This document shows, in pieces, positions 26,622 to 44,455 of a stretch of DNA of 49,204 nt; position 1 is the stretch's first letter, and each line of letters starts with the position of its first letter. A program made the position numbers and the translations under genes. The notes beneath the pieces were generated by a model. It worked only from the letters and a program-made list of their open reading frames with translations. It did not search any database and had not been told where the DNA came from. Origin of the DNA: an uncultured Spirochaetaceae bacterium. GTDB taxonomy: Bacteria > Spirochaetota > Spirochaetia > Sphaerochaetales > Sphaerochaetaceae. The stretch is from positions 1-49,204 of the forward strand of contig CALXLH010000018.1 of the NCBI GenBank assembly GCA_944389145.1, written 5' to 3'.

Positions 26622-27164
26622 TTAGTTGAGTATATATTCCTTCAATTCGCAATTACCAGGATGAATTGACCTATATTCTTCCAATGAGTAACTGTTGAAA
26701 TACGTATCGATCAATCTCATTATCGTTCCATGGCAGACAATAAGAGAATTATCGCTGTATGTTGTTTTAATGCTATCGAGGAAGTTATAGACTCTTTGCG
26801 CTGCGGTGACGATAGTTTCACCATTCGGAAATCTCATGAACGGCTCATATTTGATTACCTGGAATCCAGGATCATACCAATCAGCTCCTTCGTATATCCC
26901 GAAATTGACTTCATGGAGGTTATCTACGATGGTAGCTTTTATATTCAAGGCCTTTTCTATCGGTGATGCTGTTTCGAGAGCTCTCTTTAAAGGGGAAACG
27001 AATATGTTATGTATGTTATTTGATTCCTTGTTCTTTTCAAGGATCTCTGCAAGCTTCTTGGCTTGTTCTTTCCCTGCTTCTGAAAGACTTACATCAGAGA
27101 TGCCACAGACCATATGCTTGCTGTTCCAATCCGTCTCACCATGTCGCGTTACAAAAAGCCTCAT
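26622..27164 (-). CDS. Histidine phosphatase (phosphoglycerate-mutase family)
   Basis: A 180-residue branch-1 histidine phosphatase. The phospho-histidine motif is TRHGETDWN at residues 6-14; other catalytic parts are SPLKRALETA, HEVNFGIYEG and VCHGTIMRL. Members dephosphorylate sugar phosphates, phosphoglycerate or cobalamin intermediates. Its place behind a sugar-responsive LacI gene suggests a sugar-phosphate substrate, perhaps to relieve toxic accumulation (inference). AGGTGA precedes the ATG; the gene starts 6 bp after the regulator ends, so the two are cotranscribed. Confidence 0.85.
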   Translation of the reverse strand: MRLFVTRHGETDWNSKHMVCGISDVSLSEAGKEQAKKLAEILEKNKESNNIHNIFVSPLKRALETASPIEKALNIKATIVDNLHEVNFGIYEGADWYDPGFQVIKYEPFMRFPNGETIVTAAQRVYNFLDSIKTTYSDNSLIVCHGTIMRLIDTYFNSYSLEEYRSIHPGNCELKEYILN

Positions 27165-27170
27165 ATTGAT

Positions 27171-28259
27171 TCACCTATTATAAATCTTATTTACCATAGT
27201 GCTTCGATAATTTGAATAGATTTCAGATTGAGATGTATCAAGTATATCTTCTGTAGCAATTTCAAGAGGAATGTCGATTATCTTAGGAATCTTTATCTTT
27301 GATTTATTTTTATAGTCAAATAGAAGATGCAATAGAAGTGCACCTGTCATTTCAGGATTCTGACCTATCGCAAAATCAAGGACCTTGCTATCAAAATACC
27401 TTCTAGTATCTGCATTATAGTCATGGCATATAAGACGGATATCTTTTCTCTTCAAATATTCTATAGCGTTTGCGACTCCAGATATTCCCCCTCCTGTAAT
27501 ATAAATACCTCCAATGTTTTTGTTCCGTTCTATTAGATCAAGGGTTCCAGAGAAGGCAAGATCGTCTCTATCTTGATTTTCTAATGTCATACAGATGCTT
27601 AGATTTCTATAACGCGCATTAAGTCTATCCTGAAAACCCTGAAACCGATTTATATGGCAGTCTAGGTATTTAGAGCTTATGATTACTCCGATATCCTTTG
27701 TTGTCCGTATTAATCGCCCCATGAGATTTGCTGCACATACGCCTCCCTTGTAATGGTCTTGGCCCACGAAGCACAGCTGGTATTTCGAATTAATCTGAGA
27801 GTTGAATGTTATTATCGGAAAACCTTTCTTCCCTAGGCTGTCTACTTTATTTACGATCTTTTCTGACATAAGCGGAATCATCGCGATGCCACTGACTTTA
27901 TTTGATATCATTTCATCGATAAGCTGATCTTGCTCATCGATGTCCAAGGATCTTAGCATCCTTATATCAGTATGGACCCCGAATTCTTTTAGTTCTTCTT
28001 CCGCCTTCTTTATTCCGTTTGTGATCTGCCAGACAAAAGGATTGTAATCAGGGGTTAATATGAATCCGAAAGTTTCTATCGAATTGATTTTGACTAATGA
28101 TTTACCAATCAGGTTCGGATGATAATCAAGGGCCTTGATTATCTCTTCCACGCGTTCTCTTGTCTGAGGGTTTACGCCGGGTCGGTTATTCAGCACCCGA
28201 TCGACGGTTCCTCTTGATACATTTGCCAGTTCTGCTATTTTCTTCGATGTTACTTTCAT
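27171..28259 (-). CDS. LacI-family transcriptional regulator of the ketose/polyol-type operon
   Basis: A 362-residue repressor-type protein. The N-terminal HTH is canonical (SKKIAELANVSRGTVDRVLN with the hinge NLIGKSL), followed by a periplasmic-binding-protein-like sensor domain (FGFILTPDYNPFVWQ, then GIAMIPLMSEK). It probably binds a sugar or sugar phosphate and controls both itself and the divergent operon through two identical CACGTG-centred sites at 28330 and 28714. No Shine-Dalgarno site is evident before the ATG. Its base composition is strikingly AT-rich: one 60-base line inside it counts 32% GC. Confidence 0.88.
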   Translation of the reverse strand: MKVTSKKIAELANVSRGTVDRVLNNRPGVNPQTRERVEEIIKALDYHPNLIGKSLVKINSIETFGFILTPDYNPFVWQITNGIKKAEEELKEFGVHTDIRMLRSLDIDEQDQLIDEMISNKVSGIAMIPLMSEKIVNKVDSLGKKGFPIITFNSQINSKYQLCFVGQDHYKGGVCAANLMGRLIRTTKDIGVIISSKYLDCHINRFQGFQDRLNARYRNLSICMTLENQDRDDLAFSGTLDLIERNKNIGGIYITGGGISGVANAIEYLKRKDIRLICHDYNADTRRYFDSKVLDFAIGQNPEMTGALLLHLLFDYKNKSKIKIPKIIDIPLEIATEDILDTSQSEIYSNYRSTMVNKIYNR

Positions 28260-28329
28260 TTTGGTATCACATTATTATTGAGATTATCACAGAAAGAATG
28301 GGAGTGGGCAATTGGAAAATGAATTTTTT

Positions 28330-28341
28330 GTGCACGTGAAC
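28330..28341. promoter_or_regulatory. Probable LacI-type operator 1
   Basis: GTGCACGTGAAC, centred on CACGTG, begins 1 nt downstream of the -10 box of the regulator's own promoter. It is the exact reverse complement of the site at 28714. Confidence 0.7.
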
Positions 28342-28342
28342 A

Positions 28343-28370
28343 AAAATAAGTTGAATCCCACAGTGTTCAA
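28343..28370 (-). promoter_or_regulatory. Promoter of the LacI-family regulator gene
   Basis: Minus-strand TTGAAC (28365-28370), 16-bp spacer and TATTTT (28343-28348), directly abutting the operator. Confidence 0.5.
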
Positions 28371-28669
28371 GTTTGAGCGATCGGCCCATGAGAGAGGCCT
28401 GCTGGGGCTGTTCAAAATGGCATATAAAGGTGATCAGCTTTTTCTTATCTCTCATGTCATCGTATATGCCTCTAGAATGGGATACTAATTCACTTAATAA
28501 ATAATTATCTATATAATAATTAATTATATTTGTTTGCATCCTGTGGCTAACATAATTATCCATGCGGTTAGACAATCAGTATAGCAAATGTTACCGTTGC
28601 TATGATTATAGATATAGGGATTTGTTATTGCCACTGCTTTCCTTATTCGCAAAAAAACGCATAAATTTC

Positions 28670-28697
28670 TTGCAATATAGAAAAGTTGGGTTATAGT
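28670..28697 (+). promoter_or_regulatory. Promoter of the ketose/polyol-type operon
   Basis: TTGCAA (28670-28675), 16-bp spacer and TATAGT (28692-28697). The operator at 28714 covers the early transcribed region. Confidence 0.55.
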
Positions 28698-28713
28698 CGT
28701 ATATAAGAGCATC

Positions 28714-28725
28714 GTTCACGTGCAC
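28714..28725. promoter_or_regulatory. Probable LacI-type operator 2
   Basis: GTTCACGTGCAC, 16 nt after the -10 box and 17 nt before the first gene; reverse complement of operator 1. Confidence 0.7.
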
Positions 28726-28742
28726 AATAAAAGGAGATAATA

Positions 28743-29858
28743 ATGAAGAAGGTAAACATCGGAGTTGTTGGCTTGGGATTCGGAAAGGAGTTCTTGGCGA
28801 TTTATAAGGAGCATGAGGATGTCGGGACGATCGCGATATGCACGAGGAATCCAAAGACATTGAACAGCGTAGGTGATGAATTCGATATACCTCAGGAGCT
28901 TCGTTTTACTAATTATGATGATATGGTTGCATGCAAGGAGCTAGATGCGATACATATCGTTACTCCGATTGCTGAGCATGTTCCACAGACGCTTAAGGCT
29001 CTTGAAGCTGGGAAGCATGTTGCTTGCACAGTTCCGATGGCTACGTCACTTGAGGACCTTCAGAAGATAATCGATGCAAAGGAGAAGTCAGGTAAGTATT
29101 ACATGCAGATGGAGACTTCTCTTTATACAAGGGAATTCCTTGCGGTAAATAAGATGTATGAGAATGGTGAGCTAGGAAGGATACAGTTCCTGAAGGGCGA
29201 TCATATGCAGAACATGTCCTTGGAGGGATGGGGTGATTATTGGAGAGGATTTCCACCTTTCTACTATGGAACGCATGTCATGGCTCCTATACTTACCCTT
29301 GCCCATGCGGAACCGTTGTCAGTACGGTGCCTCGGATCAGGACATGTTTCGCAGGATAAGGCTGAAAAGTATGGATGTAAGTATGCCGTAGAGACAGCTA
29401 CGTTCCGCTTTAAGGATTCGGATATCGTTGCAGAGGCTCACAGGTGCTTGTTTGAGACTGTTCGTCAGGTAAGAGAATGCTTTGATGTATATGGTACGAA
29501 GAAGTCATTTGAATGGGAGCCTACAGTGGACGAAGGTCATACGATTTTCTATGGTATTGATGATTTCGAGAAATTCACGGCACCTGATACCGCTGAGCTT
29601 CTACCTGATTGTATAAAGAAATTCACCTTACGCCAGAATATCAATGATCCATCCCAGCCATCTTTCCGCCAAGGCTCTGGTCATGGTGGTTCACATCCTC
29701 ATCTTTGTCATGAGTTCATAAGATCGATAATCGAGGATCGAGAGCCGTCTATTGATGTCTATAGGTCTGCGAATATAAGCGCTGCAGGTATCTGTGCTCA
29801 GCTTTCAGCATTCCAGGACGGGGCAGAGGTGGAAATTCCTACATTCCGTAAGAAATAA
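28743..29858 (+). CDS. Gfo/Idh/MocA-family oxidoreductase-like protein
   Basis: A 371-residue protein with an N-terminal Rossmann fold (GVVGLGFGKEFL) and a C-terminal alpha/beta domain. Members are NAD(P)-dependent dehydrogenases for sugars, inositols or amino sugars. Here the usual E-K-P catalytic motif is replaced: AGKHVACTVPMATS has T-V-P, so the usual lysine is absent, while a histidine-containing GTHVMAPIL segment remains. It may be an atypical enzyme or use another base. AAGGAG precedes the ATG. First gene of the operon, directly downstream of operator 2. Confidence 0.82.
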   Translation: MKKVNIGVVGLGFGKEFLAIYKEHEDVGTIAICTRNPKTLNSVGDEFDIPQELRFTNYDDMVACKELDAIHIVTPIAEHVPQTLKALEAGKHVACTVPMATSLEDLQKIIDAKEKSGKYYMQMETSLYTREFLAVNKMYENGELGRIQFLKGDHMQNMSLEGWGDYWRGFPPFYYGTHVMAPILTLAHAEPLSVRCLGSGHVSQDKAEKYGCKYAVETATFRFKDSDIVAEAHRCLFETVRQVRECFDVYGTKKSFEWEPTVDEGHTIFYGIDDFEKFTAPDTAELLPDCIKKFTLRQNINDPSQPSFRQGSGHGGSHPHLCHEFIRSIIEDREPSIDVYRSANISAAGICAQLSAFQDGAEVEIPTFRKK

Positions 29859-29879
29859 GTCTGACTTTAGGAGAGAAGG

Positions 29880-31370
29880 TTGGCTATGGGGACATTTCTT
29901 CAAATGCATGGTATTCGTAAGTCCTTTAATGGTAACGAGGTACTTCATTCTGTGGATTTTGAGGTTCAGGCAGGTGAGGTTCATGCATTGATAGGTGAGA
30001 ATGGTGCGGGAAAGAGCACGCTCATGAAGATACTGATGGGCGTGTATCCTTCTGATTCTGGATCTGTGACAGTAAATGGAGTACAGGTCAACTTTCACTC
30101 TCCAAAGGATTCTGCGAATGCAGGGATTGCTATGGTGAGCCAGGAATTATGCCCGATCCTTGATATGACCGTTGCAGAGAATATCTTTGTCGGGAAAGAA
30201 ATCTGCAGAGGCGGCTTCGTGAGCAAGAAGCGACAGAATGAACGGGCTAAGGAGATACTGGCAACGCTTGGCATGACCTTCCCTCCTGATACATTGATGA
30301 GACGATTGAGTATTTCTGAGATGCAGATGGTTGAGATTGCTAAGAATGTTTCATTCGGAGCAAGACTCGTCATTATGGATGAGCCTACATCTGCTATAAC
30401 GGAAAAGGAAGTCAATCGTCTTTTTGATGTAATCAAGATGCTGAAGCAGCAAGGAATAAGCATCGTTTACATATCTCACAGATTAGAGGAACTGTTCCAG
30501 ATATCAGATAGGATAACCGTGCTCAGGGATGGCAATATGATTGCTACTGTCAAAACATGCGATACATCCCAGGATGCCCTTATCAGCATGATGGTAGGAC
30601 GGGAGATAAGCAATATCTATCCAGAAGCTACCAATGCTCCGAAAGATGATGTCTGCCTTGCTGTTGAGAATTTCTCTCGAAGGGGAGAGTTTGAGGATAT
30701 CTCCTTTTCGCTGCATCGTGGGGAGCGGTTAGGTATTGCAGGCCTTATCGGAGCAGGTAGATCTGAATTGGTACAGACTATCTTCGGCGAAAGATTGCCT
30801 GATAGTGGTAAGTTGATTCTCAATAACCGTGAAATCCGTATAAAGTCTCCCTCCGATGCGATTAAGCTTAAGATTGCTCTGATAACAGAGGATCGCAAGA
30901 AGTATGGGCTGAATTTGATAGGAACCGTACAGGACAATCTGACTTCCATAATCGAAAGCAACCTATGTCATTATGGTTTCTTCGACAACGCGGAATCCAT
31001 ACGATTGGCTAATAAGATGATTGCTGACCTGAATATCAAGGTGCGATCGACGAAACAGCTCGTAGGTTCCTTGTCTGGAGGAAACCAGCAGAAGATCGTA
31101 TTGGGGAAATGGTTGCTTTCAGATATTGATATATTCATTTTCGACGAGCCGACAAGAGGCATAGATGTTGGTGCAAAGAATGAGATTTATAAGCTTATAA
31201 ATCAGCTGGCTTCAGAGGATAAGGGTGTGATCATCATTTCGTCTGAAATGCCTGAGTTAATAGGCCTTTCAGACAGGATCCTTGTCCTGCATGAGGGAAG
31301 GCTGTCCGGAGAGCTGGCAGGGAATGATATCTCTCAGGAAAATATCATGAAGCTGGCATCTGGCGTATGA
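29880..31370 (+). CDS. Sugar ABC transporter ATP-binding protein (RbsA/MglA type)
   Basis: A 496-residue duplicated ATPase. Half 1 has GENGAGKST (Walker A), LSISEMQMVEIA (signature) and VIMDEPTSA (Walker B). Half 2 has the degenerate IGAGRSE, then LSGGNQQKIVLGKWL and IFDEPTRGIDVG. This is the layout of ribose/galactose-type importers, where one polypeptide supplies both ATPase sites. The TTG at 29880 has AGGAG at ideal spacing; an ATG six bases further is also possible. It acts with the next two genes; together they form one importer. Confidence 0.93.
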   Translation: MAMGTFLQMHGIRKSFNGNEVLHSVDFEVQAGEVHALIGENGAGKSTLMKILMGVYPSDSGSVTVNGVQVNFHSPKDSANAGIAMVSQELCPILDMTVAENIFVGKEICRGGFVSKKRQNERAKEILATLGMTFPPDTLMRRLSISEMQMVEIAKNVSFGARLVIMDEPTSAITEKEVNRLFDVIKMLKQQGISIVYISHRLEELFQISDRITVLRDGNMIATVKTCDTSQDALISMMVGREISNIYPEATNAPKDDVCLAVENFSRRGEFEDISFSLHRGERLGIAGLIGAGRSELVQTIFGERLPDSGKLILNNREIRIKSPSDAIKLKIALITEDRKKYGLNLIGTVQDNLTSIIESNLCHYGFFDNAESIRLANKMIADLNIKVRSTKQLVGSLSGGNQQKIVLGKWLLSDIDIFIFDEPTRGIDVGAKNEIYKLINQLASEDKGVIIISSEMPELIGLSDRILVLHEGRLSGELAGNDISQENIMKLASGV

Positions 31371-31381
31371 GGAGGTTTATC

Positions 31382-32335
31382 GTGAAGATTTCCAAGCAGC
31401 AGGCCATGGGTATTTTAAGAAAGACAGGCATTCTGTGGGCCCTGCTTATACTTATAATAATCCTTTCAAGTGTTTCTCCCGTATTTCTTACGGTAAGGAA
31501 TTTTATAAATATATTCCGTCAGGCTTCGATTACATCGATACTTGCCATCGGAATGACATTTGTCCTTCTAACCGGAGGAATTGACCTTTCTGTTGGTTCT
31601 GTAACAGCGTTAGCCGGTGTGTTTGCGGCTTATGTGGGTATTGCTGACAAGGGGTTGCCCCTTGCGGTATGTTATGTCGTTGCAATAGGGACAGGTCTTA
31701 TCTGTGGATTAATAAACGGCTTCGGTGTTGCTTACATAGGTTTCCCGGCGTTTATCATGACGCTTGGGATGATGGGCATAGCCAGGGGCATGGCGCAGGT
31801 GTTCACCGGAGGTTCACCGATCTTTGGCGTGTCAGATGCATTTGCTGATATTGCTGGTGGGGTGACATTTGGTATACCGAATCTTGTTTATTACATGCTT
31901 GCTATATTCGTTGTCGCATATATCATGCTTACAAAGACTCTTCCTGGCCGTAGGATATATGCTATAGGCGGTAATTCAGAAGCAGCTCGTTTATCTGGCG
32001 TGAATGTTAAGCGATATCTTGTATATGTATATGGCATATGCGGTGCGCTGGCTGGGCTATGTGGGATACTTATGGCCTCTCGGATCACTTCTGGTAATCC
32101 AATAGCCGCTACGAATTATGAGATGGATGCTATATCTGCTGCTGTCATAGGCGGGGTAAGCATGACAGGAGGAAGCGGGAGCCTTCTTGGAACCATTGTC
32201 GGTGCTTTTATCCTTATCGTCATACAGAATGGTTTCGATATCTTAGGTATTTCTCCATTCTACAAGCAAATCGTTCAAGGTGCGATTATTCTCTTCGCGG
32301 TCTTTATAGACCTCAGGAGTAAGAAATCAAAATAA
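31382..32335 (+). CDS. Sugar ABC transporter permease (RbsC type)
   Basis: A 317-residue inner-membrane protein with about eight to ten hydrophobic helices. The branched-chain/ribose permease motif is clear: FVLLTGGIDLSVGSV, then GGNSEAARLSGVNV and AAVIGGVSMTGG. It forms the channel for the imported sugar. The GTG at 31382 has AGGAGG 6 nt upstream; an ATG at 31367 overlapping the ATPase stop would add five residues but has no ribosome site. The DNA is AT-richer than the flanking genome. Confidence 0.93.
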   Translation: MKISKQQAMGILRKTGILWALLILIIILSSVSPVFLTVRNFINIFRQASITSILAIGMTFVLLTGGIDLSVGSVTALAGVFAAYVGIADKGLPLAVCYVVAIGTGLICGLINGFGVAYIGFPAFIMTLGMMGIARGMAQVFTGGSPIFGVSDAFADIAGGVTFGIPNLVYYMLAIFVVAYIMLTKTLPGRRIYAIGGNSEAARLSGVNVKRYLVYVYGICGALAGLCGILMASRITSGNPIAATNYEMDAISAAVIGGVSMTGGSGSLLGTIVGAFILIVIQNGFDILGISPFYKQIVQGAIILFAVFIDLRSKKSK

Positions 32336-32352
32336 ATAAAAAGGAGAGCGGA

Positions 32353-33291
32353 ATGAGAAAAGTATTGGTTTTCACATTGATTGTCTGTCTGACTGTTACC
32401 TCTGTATTTGCCCGTGGTGCGGCTGAGGGATCCAGTGATGGATCTTCTAAGGGAAAGGTCGTCATGACTATCTCGAATCAGCAGAATGAGTTTATCGTCG
32501 GTATGGGGAATAGCTTTAAGGAGGTTGGTGCATCCCTTGGTTATGATGTCCAGCTTCTTGATGCGCAGGTTGATCCTACTAAGCAGCTTTCCCAGATTGA
32601 GAGTGCAATTACTCAGGGAGCTGTTGCCATCTTCCTTGAGCCATGCTCATATGATGGACTTACTGCTGGACTCAAGATGGCCCATGAGGCAGGAATCCCT
32701 GTCTTTACGATCCATAATGGTGTTTCCGCGACAGAGTATGTGACTTCTGCTTTTTATGTAAATGTCCATGATGGCGGCGTACTCAAGATGCAGAGGGTCA
32801 TGGAAGATATCGGAGGAAAGGGTGATATAGCTATCATGACTGGTACTACAGGTCAGGATACTACTAACCAGATCTGCGGTGGATATGAAGAGGTCCTTGC
32901 TGATTACCCAGATGTGAATATTGTATTTACCGGTGCTGCCAATTGGAGTGCTGCTGATGCTGCTCCTCTTGCAGAGAACTGGATTGCTTCCGGCAAGCAT
33001 CTTGATGCGATCGTATGCAATAATGATGGAATGGCTCTTGGGGTCCTCCCTGTGCTTAGGACAACCGGTAATGTCGGAAAGATTAAGCTTTATGGCCTTG
33101 ATGGAACATCTGAGGGACTAAAGGCTGTTAAGGACGGAGAGATGACTGCAACTATCTATGTTGATGCTCATGCTGAGATCGTCCAGGCCTTTGAGGCTCT
33201 CGAGCAGATTCAGGCAGGGAATACGGTTGAGAAGGAATACATTATTCCACCAGTGCTTGTTGATAGTTCAAACGTGGATCAGTATATCTGA
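32353..33291 (+). CDS. Sugar-binding periplasmic protein (RbsB type)
   Basis: A 312-residue type I periplasmic binding protein. The signal peptide (KVLVFTLIVCLTVTSVFA) ends before RGAAEG with no lipobox cysteine, a pattern typical of spirochaete sugar-binding proteins. Two lobes follow, with FIVGMGNSFKEVGA, GAVAIFLEPCSYDGLTAG and AIVCNNDGMALGVL characteristic of the family. It captures the sugar for the adjacent permease; the ligand cannot be read from sequence. AAGGAG precedes the ATG. A strong hairpin follows the gene. Confidence 0.92.
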   Translation: MRKVLVFTLIVCLTVTSVFARGAAEGSSDGSSKGKVVMTISNQQNEFIVGMGNSFKEVGASLGYDVQLLDAQVDPTKQLSQIESAITQGAVAIFLEPCSYDGLTAGLKMAHEAGIPVFTIHNGVSATEYVTSAFYVNVHDGGVLKMQRVMEDIGGKGDIAIMTGTTGQDTTNQICGGYEEVLADYPDVNIVFTGAANWSAADAAPLAENWIASGKHLDAIVCNNDGMALGVLPVLRTTGNVGKIKLYGLDGTSEGLKAVKDGEMTATIYVDAHAEIVQAFEALEQIQAGNTVEKEYIIPPVLVDSSNVDQYI

Positions 33292-33301
33292 TAATTTCTG
33301 A

Positions 33302-33332
33302 TTTGGAGAGGAGGGTGGCCTCCTCTCCCAAA
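33302..33332 (+). terminator. Strong hairpin after the binding-protein gene
   Basis: GGAGAGGAGG (33305-33314) pairs fully with CCTCCTCTCC (33319-33328) around a GTGG loop, extended by TTT/AAA past one bulge. No T-run follows, so it more likely attenuates transcription or protects the upstream mRNA end, raising binding-protein output over downstream enzymes. Confidence 0.6.
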
Positions 33333-33346
33333 GATCTTAGGAAAAT

Positions 33347-34228
33347 ATGAGAATCGCAATTTCTGGAGAAGTCCCCGCTAAGGGATACGATCTAAATGAA
33401 TTCTTATGGATAGTCAAATCTCTTGATGTCTCTGCCATAGAGATTTGGCCAGAGAATATTCCATATCATGATGGTACTAATCCTTATACACGATCTTACG
33501 ATGGCCGTGATATCGATTATGCAAGAGAGATGCTATCAAGATACGGAATTACGGTTGCCTGTGTATCATTTGGCGGTGCCTTTGATAAGCGTTTTACCGA
33601 TGATCCAGATTTTTATGCGAGGGAGCTTATCCTCTCGGTCCGTACTGCTGCTAGCCTAGGATCCAAATATGTCAACAGTTATCTGTATCATCTTTCGATG
33701 AGTAAGGATCCTGATATTAGCAGGCTGTCTTCTATATATGCTCCTGCGGTAGAGGAAGCGGAGCGCCTTGGAGTGGTGATTCTGTTAGAGAACGAAGCGC
33801 ATGATTCCACTCGTGATCCTGCTGTCATGCGATCAATCATAAAGAATATCGGAAGCCAGAATTTCAGAGTGAATTTTGATGCTGTGAATTATTATCAGTC
33901 TTCATATGAGTGTTTTCCCTATTCGTTTGAAGTTCTTAAGGATTGCTTTTCATATATCCATATAAAGGATGGATGTATTTATAACAAGGATGATATTTCC
34001 CAGAATCCTAGATGTGTAGGAGGGGAAATGTCGGGAGCTAATGAAGGGAATAGCATCTATTATCCGATAATGGGTAATGGCGTTTTCAATATACCGGCTG
34101 AGATCAAGGCCTTGAAGTCCATGGGATATGATGGGTGGTGTACGCTTGAGCCTCATGTTCCTATTGATCTTTGGGGTATATATATAACTAAGGAAGTCGA
34201 ATATCTGAAGAAGCTGGGGCTTGAATAA
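33347..34228 (+). CDS. Sugar phosphate isomerase/epimerase (xylose-isomerase-like TIM barrel)
   Basis: A 293-residue TIM barrel of the AP-endonuclease-2 superfamily. Metal ligands typical of the fold are visible: Glu in ILLENEAHDS, Asp in VNFDAVNYY, His in YIHIKDG and Glu in CTLEPHVP. Such enzymes isomerise or epimerise sugars or polyol derivatives such as hydroxypyruvate or keto-inositol. The substrate is unknown. AGGA lies 4 nt before the ATG. It sits between transporter and kinase genes of the same operon, so it should act on the imported sugar or its oxidised form. Confidence 0.82.
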   Translation: MRIAISGEVPAKGYDLNEFLWIVKSLDVSAIEIWPENIPYHDGTNPYTRSYDGRDIDYAREMLSRYGITVACVSFGGAFDKRFTDDPDFYARELILSVRTAASLGSKYVNSYLYHLSMSKDPDISRLSSIYAPAVEEAERLGVVILLENEAHDSTRDPAVMRSIIKNIGSQNFRVNFDAVNYYQSSYECFPYSFEVLKDCFSYIHIKDGCIYNKDDISQNPRCVGGEMSGANEGNSIYYPIMGNGVFNIPAEIKALKSMGYDGWCTLEPHVPIDLWGIYITKEVEYLKKLGLE

Positions 34229-34243
34229 CAATGGGAGGTAGAC

Positions 34244-35188
34244 GTGGTTAAGATCTGGACGATGGGAGAAATCATAGTTGAGATCATGCGTAAGAGGGTC
34301 GATTGCGACCTTTCTTGTCCTGGAGATTTCCTTGGACCATTTCCAAGTGGAGCTCCGGCAATATTCATTGATACCGTTTCCAGGCTTGGAGGCAATGCCG
34401 GTATCATCGGTTCTGTCGGTACTGATGATTTTGGTACATGTGTCTTATCAAGGCTGAAGGAAGATGGCGTTGATTGTTCTCATGTGCAGGTAATAGAGAA
34501 TGGTCTTACCGGGGTGGCTTTTGTTACATATTTCTCTGACGGAGAAAGAAAGTTCATATTCCATCTAGAGAATTCTGCAGCAGCTGAAATGAAGGCACCT
34601 AAGAATCCTCTGAATGGAGATCTGTTTCATGTAATGGGTTGTTCTCTAACGATAAATGATAATACATATTCAGAGATCCTTAAGACCATGGAGGAATTCC
34701 TCAGCAATGGCGCTAAGATATCATTCGATCCAAATATCCGGCCTGAGCTTCTGAAAGGAAAATCAATGAAGGAGTATATCGGAAGGATCGTCGAAAATAG
34801 TTCATTCCTTCTTCCCGGAGTCTCTGAGCTTCTGATGATTGCTGGAGAGGATACCGTGGAGTCTTCTGTCGCAAAGCTATTTAAGAATCCTAGGCTTGAG
34901 GTGATTGCGCTTAAGAGGGGCAAGCATGGTTGTTCTATATTCACGCGTGAGGGCAGCCATGATTTCGGCATCTATGATATTCCTCCCATAGACGCGACAG
35001 GCGCTGGGGATTGCTTTGATGCATCCTTCCTTCTCTGCTACCTGGAAGGACGTCCTATGGATGAATGTATTAAGGTCGCAACCGCTGCCGCATCTCTTAA
35101 TACAGCAGCATTTGGTCCAATGGAAGGGAAGGTAACGCCTTCTATGATTTCGAATCTTATAGAGCAAGGCCCGTATAGGGAATTGTGA
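34244..35188 (+). CDS. PfkB-family carbohydrate kinase
   Basis: A 314-residue ribokinase-fold sugar kinase. The N-terminal signature region shows SRLGGNAGIIGSVGTDDFG; the C-terminal PfkB signature DATGAGDCFDASFLL contains the catalytic aspartate. It probably phosphorylates a ketose or 2-keto sugar from ATP; fructokinase, tagatose kinase and 2-keto-3-deoxygluconate kinase are all family members. GGAGG precedes the GTG start. Together with the neighbouring 3-epimerase and GatZ-like genes a ketohexose substrate is the most economical reading (inference). Confidence 0.87.
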   Translation: MVKIWTMGEIIVEIMRKRVDCDLSCPGDFLGPFPSGAPAIFIDTVSRLGGNAGIIGSVGTDDFGTCVLSRLKEDGVDCSHVQVIENGLTGVAFVTYFSDGERKFIFHLENSAAAEMKAPKNPLNGDLFHVMGCSLTINDNTYSEILKTMEEFLSNGAKISFDPNIRPELLKGKSMKEYIGRIVENSSFLLPGVSELLMIAGEDTVESSVAKLFKNPRLEVIALKRGKHGCSIFTREGSHDFGIYDIPPIDATGAGDCFDASFLLCYLEGRPMDECIKVATAAASLNTAAFGPMEGKVTPSMISNLIEQGPYREL

Positions 35189-35206
35189 TAAAGCAAAGGA
35201 GAGTTT

Positions 35207-36079
35207 ATGAAATACGGAGTTCTTTACGCCTATTGGAAAAGTGAATGGAGAACCGATTATAAGGAATGCCTGAAGAAAACGAAGGAAGCCGGATTTGACA
35301 TCATGGAGGTTGGTGCCGGTCATCTGCTTGATATGAGCGATGGTTACCTTAAGGAACTTAAGGCTGCTGCCGATGATCTTGGAATGATCATTACATCAAA
35401 TATCGGTCCGGCAAAGGATAAGGATGTTGCTTCTGCTGATCCTGAAGTCCGGAAGAATGGAATAAGGTTCCTTTCAGATATAATGAGACAGATGGATAAG
35501 GTAGGTTCTAAGTCCCTCGTTGGAGTTACTTATACTTATTGGCCGAATGATTTTTCTGATCTTGATAAGCCCGCGTTATGGGCTAGGGGTGTAGAAAGTG
35601 TCAAGAAATTCGGAAAGGTTGCCCTGGATCTTGGAATCGATGTATGCCTTGAGGTTGTAAATCGTTATGAGACGGTAACTCTCAATACGGCAGAAGAGGG
35701 AATAAGATTCTGTGATGAGGTCGGGAATCCTAATGTAAAGCTACTTTTGGATACATTCCATATGAATATCGAAGAGGATAATATTGCTGAGGCTTTCCGC
35801 AAGACTGGACGTAAGTACATTGGACATATTCATGTTGGCGAGGCCAATCGTAAGCTACCAGGAATGGGAAGCCTGCCATGGAGAGAGATTGGCCGGGCTC
35901 TTGCAGATATTGGTTATGATGGCAACGTAGTCATGGAACCATTCTTGCGGAACGGCGGAAGCGTCGCAAAGGATATTAAGGTCTGGAGAGATCTTACCAA
36001 TGGAGCAAGCGAGAAAGAGCTTGACCGCATGCTAAAGGATTCGTTGGTATTCCTGAAGCATGAATTCGAGACAGTCTGA
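35207..36079 (+). CDS. D-allulose (psicose)/D-tagatose 3-epimerase-like protein
   Basis: A 290-residue TIM barrel strongly resembling ketose 3-epimerases: KYGVLYAYWKSEW at the start, then CLEVVNRYETVTLNTAEEG with the first catalytic Glu, LLLDTFHMNIEE, GHIHVGEANRKLPG and VVMEPFLRNGG with the second Glu. Known enzymes interconvert D-fructose with D-allulose or D-tagatose with D-sorbose using Mn2+ or Co2+. The full catalytic set appears present. AAAGGAG precedes the ATG. Its 3' end is 13 bp from the GatZ-like gene. The exact ketose cannot be read from the sequence. Confidence 0.87.
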   Translation: MKYGVLYAYWKSEWRTDYKECLKKTKEAGFDIMEVGAGHLLDMSDGYLKELKAAADDLGMIITSNIGPAKDKDVASADPEVRKNGIRFLSDIMRQMDKVGSKSLVGVTYTYWPNDFSDLDKPALWARGVESVKKFGKVALDLGIDVCLEVVNRYETVTLNTAEEGIRFCDEVGNPNVKLLLDTFHMNIEEDNIAEAFRKTGRKYIGHIHVGEANRKLPGMGSLPWREIGRALADIGYDGNVVMEPFLRNGGSVAKDIKVWRDLTNGASEKELDRMLKDSLVFLKHEFETV

Positions 36080-36092
36080 AAAGGAAGAGCTT

Positions 36093-37394
36093 ATGAACGG
36101 AATTCATCCACTTAGGGAAATCGTAGATAGAAACAGATTTGGAGAACACATAGGGATGTATTCCGTATGTTCTTCTAGCTCGATCGTCATACGTGCGGCA
36201 TTGCGTGATGCCGCGCAATATGATTATCCGGTAATAATCGAAAGTACAGCGAATCAGGTTAATCAGGATGGTGGATATACTGGAATGCAACCTGGTGATT
36301 TTGTTTCCATGGTGATGCAGATAGCAAAAGATGAGCATGTTCCTAATGCCCGCATCATATTAGGAGGCGATCATCTGGGACCGCTCACATGGACAGATAA
36401 GAACGAGAGCGAGGCTATGGCTCTTGCTTGTGATCTTGTGCGTTCTTATACGCTTGCTGGATATACTAAGATTCATCTTGATACGAGCATGAAGGTCAAG
36501 GATGATCCAGATGGCAGGCTTGACCCCCACGTATGTGCAAGAAGGGGAGCTGAGCTGGCTTGTGTGGTGAACGAAGCTTTTGAGTCCTATCATAGGATTA
36601 ATCCAAATGCGATAAGGCCTGTTCTTATCGTTGGTAGTGAGGTTCCTATTCCTGGTGGTAGCCAGGAACATGAGAATACCTTGACGCCTACTGATTCCTT
36701 GGATTTTCTAGAGCAAGTAGATATATTTCGTAATACGTTCAAGGAAAAAGGCTTGGATTTTGGACAGGTGGTAGCTTTTGTCGTACAACCCGGCGTAGAG
36801 TTCGGGGATGATTTCGTAATACAGTACGATAGGCCTAAGGCTTTGAAGCTAATGTCAGCATTAAAGCAGGTCCCCGGAATAGTATTTGAAGGTCACAGTA
36901 CGGATTATCAAATCAATAGGAGCCTTTACGATATGGTTTCCGATGGAGTTGGAATACTGAAGGTCGGACCTGCTTTTACTTTTAGGCTAAGGGAAGCCTT
37001 ACTGCTGCTAGAGGAGATTGAGAGGATAATCTGTACAGACAGAGGAAAGCCTCTTTCTGTGTTTAAGGATACATTATTAGCTGATATGGCAGATAATCCA
37101 AGATACTGGAAGAAGTATTACCAAGGTACTTTGGAAGAGATAACCTTCAAGAAATTATATAGTTATAGTGACAGATGTAGATATTATCTTCCCGACATAA
37201 TCGTTCAGAAGGCTATTGACACTCTTTTTTATAATCTTGATTCAATTCCAGAAGTTTTGCTTAGTCAGTATTTCCCGATACAGTATAAGCATTATATGGA
37301 ACATCGGATTGAGAATGACGCGTTATCCGTTGCGATTGATTATGTCCAGGAAACATGCCACGACTATGCTGTAGCTGCAGGGTTGTGCAGATAA
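36093..37394 (+). CDS. GatZ/KbaZ-like protein (tagatose-bisphosphate aldolase subunit family)
   Basis: A 433-residue TIM-barrel protein of the GatZ/KbaZ family. Marks are IIESTANQVNQDGGYTGM, ILGGDHLGPLTW, HLDTSMKVKDDP and VFEGHSTDYQ. In enterobacteria GatZ is a non-catalytic partner of the aldolase GatY. No GatY is encoded here. Some stand-alone members are reported to act as tagatose-6-phosphate 4-epimerases (recalled from work on Agrobacterium galactitol use), which would fit here. The ATG at 36093 has GGAAGAG upstream. Last gene of the operon. AT-rich, like its neighbours. Confidence 0.82.
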   Translation: MNGIHPLREIVDRNRFGEHIGMYSVCSSSSIVIRAALRDAAQYDYPVIIESTANQVNQDGGYTGMQPGDFVSMVMQIAKDEHVPNARIILGGDHLGPLTWTDKNESEAMALACDLVRSYTLAGYTKIHLDTSMKVKDDPDGRLDPHVCARRGAELACVVNEAFESYHRINPNAIRPVLIVGSEVPIPGGSQEHENTLTPTDSLDFLEQVDIFRNTFKEKGLDFGQVVAFVVQPGVEFGDDFVIQYDRPKALKLMSALKQVPGIVFEGHSTDYQINRSLYDMVSDGVGILKVGPAFTFRLREALLLLEEIERIICTDRGKPLSVFKDTLLADMADNPRYWKKYYQGTLEEITFKKLYSYSDRCRYYLPDIIVQKAIDTLFYNLDSIPEVLLSQYFPIQYKHYMEHRIENDALSVAIDYVQETCHDYAVAAGLCR

Positions 37395-42031: not shown

Positions 42032-42045
42032 TTGAAACGGTTCAA
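42032..42045. promoter_or_regulatory. LacI-type operator at the regulator's promoter
   Basis: TTGAAACGGTTCAA: arms TTGAA/TTCAA around a central CG, placed over the start of transcription, so the regulator should repress itself. Confidence 0.75.
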
Positions 42046-42058
42046 AAGGAGGACTGCC

Positions 42059-43072
42059 ATGGGGAAGATAACCATCAAGGATGTTGCAGCTCTTGCCGGC
42101 GTCTCCGTGGGAACCGCTTCAATGGCGCTCAATGATTCTCCGAAGGTCTCCGCAGAGACGAAGAAGAATGTGATGGCAGTGGTCCAGAAGCTCGGATACC
42201 GCCGCGATCCATATGCAAGATCGCTCAGCCTCTCATCCTCAAGATCGATAGGCTTCCTGGCTCCGGGATTCCGCAATCCGTTCTTCGGCGAGGTTGCAGA
42301 GGCGCTCCAGCTTGCGGTAGAGGAGAAGAACAACAGCCTGATGTTCGGCATCACGAATGACAGCACCGAGCAGGAGGCGAAGCTTGTCGACCAGTTCCTG
42401 GACAGGGGAGTCGATGGACTGATCATCATACCCGCAGAGGACAGCAATCCCGATCTCTCGCATATAAGGAACCTCCTCAATCATGATTTCCCGCTCGTAT
42501 TCCTTACCGGGTATTATCCTGAGATTCCGTTCCATGCAGTCATGGCGGATCTCGCGGAAGGCTCATATGAGCTGACGAAGGGAATGCTCGATGCAGGGCT
42601 CAGAAACATCATAATGATTGCTGGAAACCCGTCTCTCATACCGTTCCGTGAGAGGATAGAGGGTTTCAGGAGAGCATTGGATGAATGCAGCGTGGCATTC
42701 GATGAGAGCAAGGTGATCATCTCCGATGGCATGAGCTATGAAGGCGGATATGCCGCTATCGACAAGGTATACGATGAGATAAAGCCCGATGGGATCATTG
42801 CGATAAACGATGTGATGGCAATGGGTGTCATAGGCCGCCTGAGATCCAAGGGGATAAGGGTTCCGGAGGATGTATCCGTTGCCGGCTATGATGACATCTC
42901 GGTTTCCTCGATACAGGAGACGCCGCTTACGACAGTCGAGCAGCCGATAGCCTTGATGTGCTCGGAAGCTGTGGATATGCTCTTCTCCCTCATGGAAGGG
43001 AAGGCTGTTGCCGAAGGGGTGGTGAGGATTCCTGTTTCGGTGAAGCGCAGGAGGTCTGCAAAGACTGGCTGA
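42059..43072 (+). CDS. LacI-family transcriptional regulator of the second sugar cassette
   Basis: A 337-residue repressor. Canonical HTH (TIKDVAALAGVSVGTASMAL) and hinge (PYARSLSLSSSRSIGF), then a sugar-sensing domain (DGLIIIPAEDSNPD, DGIIAINDVMAMGV, VAGYDDISVSSIQ). The ATG at 42059 has AAGGAGG upstream. Its own promoter carries a TTGAA-N4-TTCAA operator, and a second copy lies before the next gene, so it very likely controls the epimerase and ABC importer that follow. Base composition matches the main genome, unlike the LacI gene at 27171. Confidence 0.92.
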   Translation: MGKITIKDVAALAGVSVGTASMALNDSPKVSAETKKNVMAVVQKLGYRRDPYARSLSLSSSRSIGFLAPGFRNPFFGEVAEALQLAVEEKNNSLMFGITNDSTEQEAKLVDQFLDRGVDGLIIIPAEDSNPDLSHIRNLLNHDFPLVFLTGYYPEIPFHAVMADLAEGSYELTKGMLDAGLRNIIMIAGNPSLIPFRERIEGFRRALDECSVAFDESKVIISDGMSYEGGYAAIDKVYDEIKPDGIIAINDVMAMGVIGRLRSKGIRVPEDVSVAGYDDISVSSIQETPLTTVEQPIALMCSEAVDMLFSLMEGKAVAEGVVRIPVSVKRRRSAKTG

Positions 43073-43079
43073 ATGAGTT

Positions 43080-43109
43080 CCGGCCCAGTGTGGAGGTCAC
43101 GGTGGCCGG
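43080..43109 (+). terminator. GC-rich hairpin after the LacI gene
   Basis: CCGGCC/GGCCGG with an inner GTG/CAC pair, 8 bp past the stop. No T-run; it may attenuate transcription or be an RNA processing site. Confidence 0.4.
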
Positions 43110-43117
43110 GGGATAGG

Positions 43118-43170
43118 GAATCAGCTGAATCATCAGGAGAAGCGGAGGCTCCGGATGATTGAACTGATTC
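43118..43170 (+). repeat. Long inverted repeat before the epimerase gene
   Basis: Two 17-bp arms (43118-43134 and 43154-43170) pair at 15 of 17 positions, with an inner GGAG/CTCC stem. The right arm contains most of the second operator. A-rich DNA and the AAGGAGG ribosome site follow at once. Confidence 0.65.
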
Positions 43171-43172
43171 AA
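43159..43172. promoter_or_regulatory. Second LacI-type operator, before the epimerase gene
   Basis: TTGAACTGATTCAA has the same TTGAA/TTCAA arms and 4-bp spacer as the operator at 42032 but lacks the central CG. No separate promoter is evident nearby. Confidence 0.65.
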
Positions 43173-43186
43173 AAAAGGAGGTTGCT

Positions 43187-44455
43187 ATGGATTTCAAGAC
43201 AGTTCGCAAGGAGCTGTTCGATACTCTGCAGAAAGAGATAATACCGTTCTGGCTCAACAACTCTATCGACAAGGAATATGGCGGATATATCACATCTTTC
43301 GATGAGAATGGCCATTTCGATGGTAACGGAATAAAGAATATCGTTACCCAGGCGAGGATGGTCTGGGGCTTCTCGAGGCTCATGCCCTATGCATCAGAGG
43401 AGAACAAGCCCCGGATGAAGGAAGCTGCCGAGTATGGAAAGCGCTTCCTCATCGACAGATTCTGGGATAAGGAATACGGTGGATACTACTGGCTCCTCAA
43501 CAGGGATGGCTCGGTGCATGATGACTCCAAGCTCACCTATGGTGAAGGCTTCGCTGTCTATGCGCTTGCCCAGTGCTATCTGACATATGGGGACAAGGAA
43601 GCGCTTGAGTATGCGGAGAAGGGCTTCGATTATCTCCTCAAGTACAGCGCTGATACGCTCCGCGGCGGTTATTTCGAGAACGTGGAACGCGACTGGACGC
43701 TCTCTCCTGCGGGAAAGGCAGCAGGTGACCGCAAGTCCCTGGATATCCACATGCATCTTCTCGAAGCATATACGACGCTCTATGAGGCAACGGGAAAGGA
43801 AATCCATGGCAGAAGGCTCCGCGAAGTCTATGAGCTCATCGTGCGCCACATGGTCAATGCCGTGGAGGGCTATGGCTACAACCAGTTCGATCTTGAGTTC
43901 AATAAGGTTCCTGCCGTCAACATCCCGCGCACATGGAATGCAGAGCGCGAGAGCAACGAGAAGATCGATACCCCGACCGATACGACAAGCTATGGGCACA
44001 ACGTAGAGCTCAGCTGGCTTGCCGATCTTGCTCTCAAGGTTCTCGGATCACGCACGGAAGAGGACCAGAAGCTTCTCGTGAAGCTTCTCGATCATGCGCT
44101 TGCCCATGGCTATGACTGGGAGCATGGCGGCGTATTCCGCGATGGAGTCGGCACAGGCCCTGCCCTCGTAAGGGACAAGGAATGGTGGCAGAACTTCGAG
44201 TCAATGACCGGCTTCCTCAATGGCTACATGATGACGGGCGACGAGAAGTACTACGATGCCTTCAGTCGCACATGGGATTTCGACAACAGGTATTTCATGA
44301 ACCATGAAGTCGGTGAGAGCAGACAGCTCCTCAGAGAGGATGGCACGCCGCTTGTCGCCAATATCGGGAACCCATGGAAGGGAATCTACCACACGGGCAG
44401 AGCATTCGCAGAGTGCATCGACAGGCTCGACGAGTGCATTGCGAAGGAGGGATGA
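43187..44455 (+). CDS. AGE-family epimerase/isomerase (N-acylglucosamine/cellobiose 2-epimerase type)
   Basis: A 422-residue (alpha/alpha)6-barrel enzyme. Conserved histidines are in place: SLDIHMHLLEAYTTLYE, TTSYGHNVELSWL and WKGIYHTGRAFAE; aromatic stretches such as EYGGYYWLLNRDG line the barrel. Family members epimerise N-acetylglucosamine, cellobiose or mannose at C2, or isomerise mannose to fructose. The motif set looks closest to mannose/cellobiose-type enzymes, but the substrate is not certain. AAAAAAGGAGG precedes the ATG. The ABC importer genes follow directly, so it probably acts on the imported sugar. Confidence 0.87.
   Translation: MDFKTVRKELFDTLQKEIIPFWLNNSIDKEYGGYITSFDENGHFDGNGIKNIVTQARMVWGFSRLMPYASEENKPRMKEAAEYGKRFLIDRFWDKEYGGYYWLLNRDGSVHDDSKLTYGEGFAVYALAQCYLTYGDKEALEYAEKGFDYLLKYSADTLRGGYFENVERDWTLSPAGKAAGDRKSLDIHMHLLEAYTTLYEATGKEIHGRRLREVYELIVRHMVNAVEGYGYNQFDLEFNKVPAVNIPRTWNAERESNEKIDTPTDTTSYGHNVELSWLADLALKVLGSRTEEDQKLLVKLLDHALAHGYDWEHGGVFRDGVGTGPALVRDKEWWQNFESMTGFLNGYMMTGDEKYYDAFSRTWDFDNRYFMNHEVGESRQLLREDGTPLVANIGNPWKGIYHTGRAFAECIDRLDECIAKEG

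Follow-up and report, generated by a model that had tools for sequence, protein, structure and literature searches.

The annotation of GatZ proteins still describes them as aldolase subunits without catalytic activity. The locus analyzed here raises the question of what such a protein does in an operon where, as the preliminary description pointed out, it has no catalytic aldolase partner; indeed, no class II aldolase gene was found in this operon. The window, that is, the whole analyzed stretch of 49,204 nucleotides, comes from contig C18 of a 2.13 Mb draft genome (42 contigs; 95.3% complete, about 5% missing). The gene content suggests that the bacterium is a spirochaete. We consider it fairly probable that the operon encodes an aldolase-free catabolic route from a ketohexose to fructose 6-phosphate, the likeliest substrates being the C3 epimers D-tagatose and D-sorbose. 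This reading is drawn from the observed gene content and compactness of the operon, the conserved active sites, the recurring gene partnerships, and the operator copies, from which we infer all substrates and activities.

Operon structure, regulation, and origin

The preliminary description placed four open reading frames at 33347-37394; this location is exact, and the Pfam families match at each frame. The features of the region are as follows.

26622..27164, minus strand: histidine phosphatase (PF00300), directly downstream of lacI
27171..28259, minus strand: LacI-family regulator, divergent from the operon and facing it
28330..28341, plus strand: putative LacI operator GTGCACGTGAAC, lacI side
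28714..28725, plus strand: putative LacI operator GTTCACGTGCAC, a second copy in inverted orientation, 17 nt ahead of the Gfo/Idh start codon
28743..29858, plus strand: Gfo/Idh/MocA oxidoreductase, with CTVP in place of EKP
29880..31370, plus strand: CUT2 sugar ABC transporter, ATP-binding protein
31367..32335, plus strand: CUT2 sugar ABC transporter, permease
32353..33291, plus strand: periplasmic sugar-binding protein, ribose-binding type
33347..34228, plus strand: ISO1, AP_endonuc_2 (PF01261) TIM-barrel isomerase/epimerase protein
34244..35188, plus strand: KIN, PfkB-family sugar kinase (PF00294); best-matching NCBIfam model that of tagatose kinase, with a score under the cut-off
35207..36079, plus strand: DTE, ketose 3-epimerase (PF01261) of the D-psicose/D-tagatose 3-epimerase family (NF051856)
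36060..37394, plus strand: GatZ/KbaZ-family protein (PF08013), probable D-tagatose 6-phosphate 4-epimerase

Eight genes stand in a row at 28743-37394, in the order Gfo/Idh, ABC ATPase, permease, binding protein, ISO1, KIN, DTE, and GatZ, with successive intergenic distances of 21, -4, 17, 55, 15, 18, and -20 nt. Since the gaps range from -20 to +55 nt, these genes probably form one transcription unit.

The divergently encoded LacI protein would control the operon from the two putative operators. Perfect copies of GTKCACGTGMAC occur twice in the 2.13 Mb genome, both in the operon promoter region (28330 and 28714); as the motif was derived from the inverted 12-mer at these two positions, the count shows that there are no further sites and carries no independent significance. 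Two GTGC[AT]CG[AT]G sites, as in the window, are present in each of the promoter regions of loci L145 (from another genome of the class) and L146. Two other genomes of the class also have a lacI gene next to this 3-epimerase and kinase; the window LacI is 45% and 44% identical to the products of these genes.

The histidine phosphatase gene starts 6 nt after lacI on the same minus strand. Its product is possibly a sugar-phosphate phosphatase acting on a sugar phosphate of the ketose pathway, and its membership in the system is uncertain. Elsewhere in the window, at 42032-44455, a LacI-type regulator is followed by a protein that, judged by eye, reads like an N-acylglucosamine 2-epimerase or cellobiose 2-epimerase.

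The operon has a G+C content of 44% and lacI one of 38%, compared with 54% for the remainder of the window. None of the six same-genus and six same-family genomes sampled yielded a PF08013 gene. The low G+C content of the operon and lacI (27171-37394), together with the absence from sampled congeners, makes horizontal acquisition of the operon likely. In one further genome of the same family, GatZ adjoins AgaS, and a more divergent kinase is encoded nearby.

Enzymes of the operon and their relatives

For KIN, the best model by far is that of tagatose kinase (NF049991), although its score of 280.5 lies below the cut-off of 420; the protein has the PfkB signature with the catalytic Asp (DATGAGD at residue 250). 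DTE exceeds the cut-off of the D-psicose 3-epimerase model NF051856 (381.8 bits, cut-off 300) and shares 50% identity with the PDB 3vnk enzyme. Its metal ligands and catalytic residues E149, D182, H209, and E244 are intact (E150, D183, H209, and E244 in 3vnk). The substrate pocket has L6, I66, and V107, compared with Y6, H66, and A107 in the 3vnk enzyme. Because of these differences the substrate preference of DTE is not predictable, and it may be different from that of the 3vnk enzyme. At two loci (L206:7200-9097 and L210:6078-8774), close relatives of KIN and DTE adjoin each other without GatZ; at the latter, the pair lies beside a FucA/AraD-type protein. Thus, the kinase and the 3-epimerase are not tied to the GatZ pathway alone, and the pair may be combined with different last steps in different genomes.

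The GatZ-family protein is the product of the only PF08013 gene in the genome. It matches this Pfam profile with 498.3 bits (curated cut-off 26.7) over positions 1-419 of 420, and its alignment to the solved GatZ-family structures 3txv and 2fiq covers almost the entire protein. Its scores are below the equivalog cut-offs of the TIGR02810 (431 vs 568.8), GatZ (348 vs 579), and KbaZ (383 vs 707) models. The active-site residues of E. coli GatZ given in PMC11907403, a paper of 2025, are C20, E44, D87, H88, E171, H257, and K279. Their counterparts in the window, C37, E61, D104, H105, E194, H279, and K301, are all identical to them, and the same seven residues are found in 42/42 aligned family members (the window protein and 41 others). 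Such conservation shows that catalysis is possible and does not distinguish the protein from E. coli GatZ: as the residues are common to the whole family, GatY-linked members included, they are no proof that the window GatZ differs from it. According to the same paper, E. coli GatZ and KbaZ have C4-epimerase activity on fructose/tagatose 6-phosphate and supply the epimerization of fructose 6-phosphate to tagatose 6-phosphate in vivo, which GatY/KbaY do not; the 4-epimerase mechanism presented there is a computational proposal. The preliminary description had suggested a tagatose-6-phosphate 4-epimerase for this protein. With all seven active-site residues kept and no GatY beside it, the window GatZ is indeed a probable D-tagatose 6-phosphate 4-epimerase.

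The window GatZ is 51% identical to the protein of a Clostridiales MAG, 45% to that of S. meliloti pSymB, and 38% and 41% to E. coli GatZ and KbaZ, respectively. The Clostridiales protein is its closest relative, which raised the idea of separate histories for GatZ and the rest of the DTE-KIN-GatZ triad. In a smaller tree, however, the window groups with L034 and L145 with support, and we therefore do not claim gene replacement. A scan of genome contigs with the GatZ protein yielded two loci only.

Besides the window, a kinase and GatZ are neighbors without GatY at 14 loci, found in S. meliloti pSymB, Ensifer, Paracoccus, Neorhizobium, Rhizobium, Palleronia, Rhodobacter, the Clostridiales MAG, where a CUT2 transporter is also present, and several genomes of the phylum to which the window belongs. 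Among the GatZ loci with adequate flanks, GatY lies near GatZ at 0/11 kinase-linked loci compared with 14/24 others (Fisher p = 0.0009), or 0/11 compared with 6/16 after near-identical clostridial loci are collapsed (p = 0.054). The GatY-linked loci in Clostridia also contain AgaS, NagA, and PTS genes. This genomic context is evidence that GatZ acts independently of GatY where a PfkB kinase accompanies it, which agrees with the 4-epimerase activity published in PMC11907403. Kinase-linked versus GatY-linked context was rejected as a clean subfamily marker, as several changes of this label are needed on the GatZ tree.

The whole triad recurs at L145, where DTE, KIN, and GatZ are 64%, 55%, and 46% (BLAST segment) identical to the window proteins, respectively. 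The L145 triad is faced by a LacI gene 45% identical to that of the window, and no Gfo/Idh or ISO1 gene was found next to it. LacI, DTE, and KIN are also present at L146, where the kinase gene is cut off by the end of the contig. Another DTE-KIN-GatZ triad lies beside SDR dehydrogenases on a plasmid of Rhodobacter sp. CZR27 (L059).

The EKP motif with its lysine was not found in the Gfo/Idh protein, which has CTVP instead; CTVP or CTIP is present in 12/12 relatives at 42-51% identity from other genomes of the class. Most of these relatives (L218-L226) lie in a second gene cluster conserved in the class, which encodes a CUT1 transporter and two ABC ATPases along with AP_endonuc_2 proteins and a zinc alcohol dehydrogenase; a class II aldolase is often present as well, and at L219 also an FGGY kinase. 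This second cluster possibly represents an undescribed sugar or polyol pathway. ISO1 keeps the four metal ligands typical of its fold, the invariant E148, D178, H205, and E268. No close relative of ISO1 was found in 148 genomes of the class, where identities reach only 22-35% and extend over just part of its length; a phmmer search of PDB gave no match, and a profile search gave many AP_endonuc_2 enzymes of mixed function and no substrate hint. Our guess is that the Gfo/Idh protein and ISO1 channel another sugar derivative to this ketose; the polyol or aldose that the preliminary description proposed as their input is likewise a guess.

Substrate of the pathway and alternative explanations

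In the proposed route, the CUT2 ABC transporter would import the ketohexose, the 3-epimerase would interconvert D-sorbose and D-tagatose, and the PfkB kinase would phosphorylate D-tagatose to D-tagatose 6-phosphate. The GatZ-family protein would invert C4 of the latter by a metal-dependent retro-aldol/aldol reaction, and the resulting D-fructose 6-phosphate would enter glycolysis. Tagatose 6-phosphate and fructose 6-phosphate are C4 epimers of each other. The C3 epimer pairs, as also listed in PMC6432756, are fructose/allulose and tagatose/sorbose. By stereochemistry, all three enzymes are used by D-sorbose only; D-tagatose needs the kinase and GatZ only. D-Allulose would reach fructose 6-phosphate through D-fructose without GatZ, DTE and a fructokinase being sufficient, and L-sorbose does not fit. 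This narrows the choice among the ketoses named in the preliminary description, allulose, sorbose, and tagatose; the order of steps proposed there, 3-epimerization, phosphorylation, and 4-epimerization to fructose 6-phosphate without an aldolase, is supported. Because only entry through D-sorbose employs all three enzymes, D-sorbose, or D-sorbose together with D-tagatose, is the most economical guess for the natural substrate. Tentatively, the operon may even be a dedicated pathway for D-sorbose, or for a derivative converted to D-sorbose by the Gfo/Idh protein and ISO1, in which two epimerases replace a dehydrogenase and an aldolase. We know of no natural route of D-sorbose catabolism; if this suggestion is true, the operon would be the first.

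The kinase, 3-epimerase, and GatZ could also act on a different ketose, such as an L-ketose, a pentulose, or a sugar derivative that the Gfo/Idh protein and ISO1 produce, with GatZ being a 4-epimerase or an aldolase for that other phosphate. We regard this as unlikely, although the same unit contains two more enzymes without an assigned substrate, the Gfo/Idh protein and ISO1, the latter lacking close relatives among the 148 class genomes, the DTE pocket differs from that of 3vnk, and members of the kinase clade are also found at loci without GatZ. Against this explanation, the kinase-GatZ core recurs widely without Gfo or ISO1, the L145 triad has neither of them adjacent, and the S. meliloti core has been linked with tagatose (Kohlmeier 2019, cited in PMC11907403).

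Another explanation is a classical tagatose pathway split between loci. No PF01116 genes were found on contig C18, and there are three elsewhere in the genome, on C7, C14, and C32. The C32 aldolase scores above the cut-off of a class II fructose-bisphosphate aldolase model, and the C14 aldolase adjoins genes that, as read from their sequences, are triosephosphate isomerase-like, phosphofructokinase-like, and NagB-like. The aldolase at C7:24867-25709 is GatY/FbaA-like and is the candidate partner: GatZ would stabilize or activate it, and before the aldolase step tagatose 6-phosphate would be phosphorylated a second time, either by the LacC/FruK-like kinase encoded on C1, a hexose-phosphate kinase of the 1-PFK/LacC group, or by a phosphofructokinase. 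Both the aldolase and the second kinase are thus available in the genome, and the accessory role was the first one described for GatZ (Brinkkotter 2002, cited in PMC11907403). Nevertheless, we find a split pathway quite improbable. The C7 aldolase scores below every equivalog cut-off, those of the tagatose-bisphosphate aldolase models included, and belongs to an operon of its own (L036:5364-15682), which also encodes a CUT1 transporter, one kinase each of the FGGY and PfkB families, IolB-like and ManA-like proteins, and DeoR and AraC-type regulators. Furthermore, the operator motif is found at the window operon only, GatY is absent from every kinase-linked GatZ locus examined, and the window GatZ is below the NCBIfam cut-offs for the aldolase subunit, GatZ, and KbaZ. 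The search of the genome for gatY/kbaY proposed in the preliminary description thus did reveal a GatY-like aldolase, on C7, but no sign of its co-regulation with the operon.

Under the preferred reading, an aldolase-free route through two epimerases, the operon would be a source of enzymes of interest for rare-sugar production, and its 3-epimerase pairing points to the use of D-sorbose and D-tagatose in these bacteria. It also makes an annotation rule testable, namely that kinase-linked GatZ is to be called a 4-epimerase.

Comparison with known systems

The preliminary description knew of no pathway with exactly this gene set, which is only partly right. The kinase and GatZ core was already described in rhizobia; the new part is the pairing of this known core with a ketose 3-epimerase, plus the Gfo/Idh and ISO1 genes. 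No described D-sorbose pathway or 3-epimerase-kinase-GatZ pathway was found in the literature searched, which most subscription papers fall outside.

Agrobacterium tumefaciens C58 is reported to combine a PfkB tagatose kinase, a PF08013 tagatose 6-phosphate 4-epimerase, and an ABC transporter without an aldolase (Wichelecki 2015, cited in PMC11907403). As in the D-altritol/galactitol pathways of this strain, the window has an ABC transporter, a PfkB kinase, a PF08013 protein, and no aldolase. Entry into the C58 pathways in that 2015 work is reportedly through polyol dehydrogenases, and to our knowledge their gene set includes neither a ketose 3-epimerase nor a Gfo/Idh protein with a second AP_endonuc_2 protein. 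The E. coli gat and aga/kba systems have GatZ/KbaZ homologs with the same active-site residues; unlike the window, they contain GatY/KbaY and use PTS import, and gat also contains a galactitol-1-phosphate dehydrogenase.

The S. meliloti pSymB cluster shares with the window the combination of a CUT2 ABC transporter, a sugar kinase, a GatZ-family protein, and LacI, whereas the 3-epimerase, the Gfo/Idh protein, and the first isomerase are present in the window only. We take this cluster to be the tagatose operon of Kohlmeier 2019. A tagatose operon on pSymB has been published (Kohlmeier 2019, cited in PMC11907403). The Rhodobacter sp. CZR27 locus resembles the window in having an adjacent 3-epimerase (37%), sugar kinase (39%), and GatZ (39%); a CUT1-type transporter and SDR/ADH dehydrogenases stand there in place of the CUT2 transporter, the Gfo/Idh protein, and ISO1 of the window.
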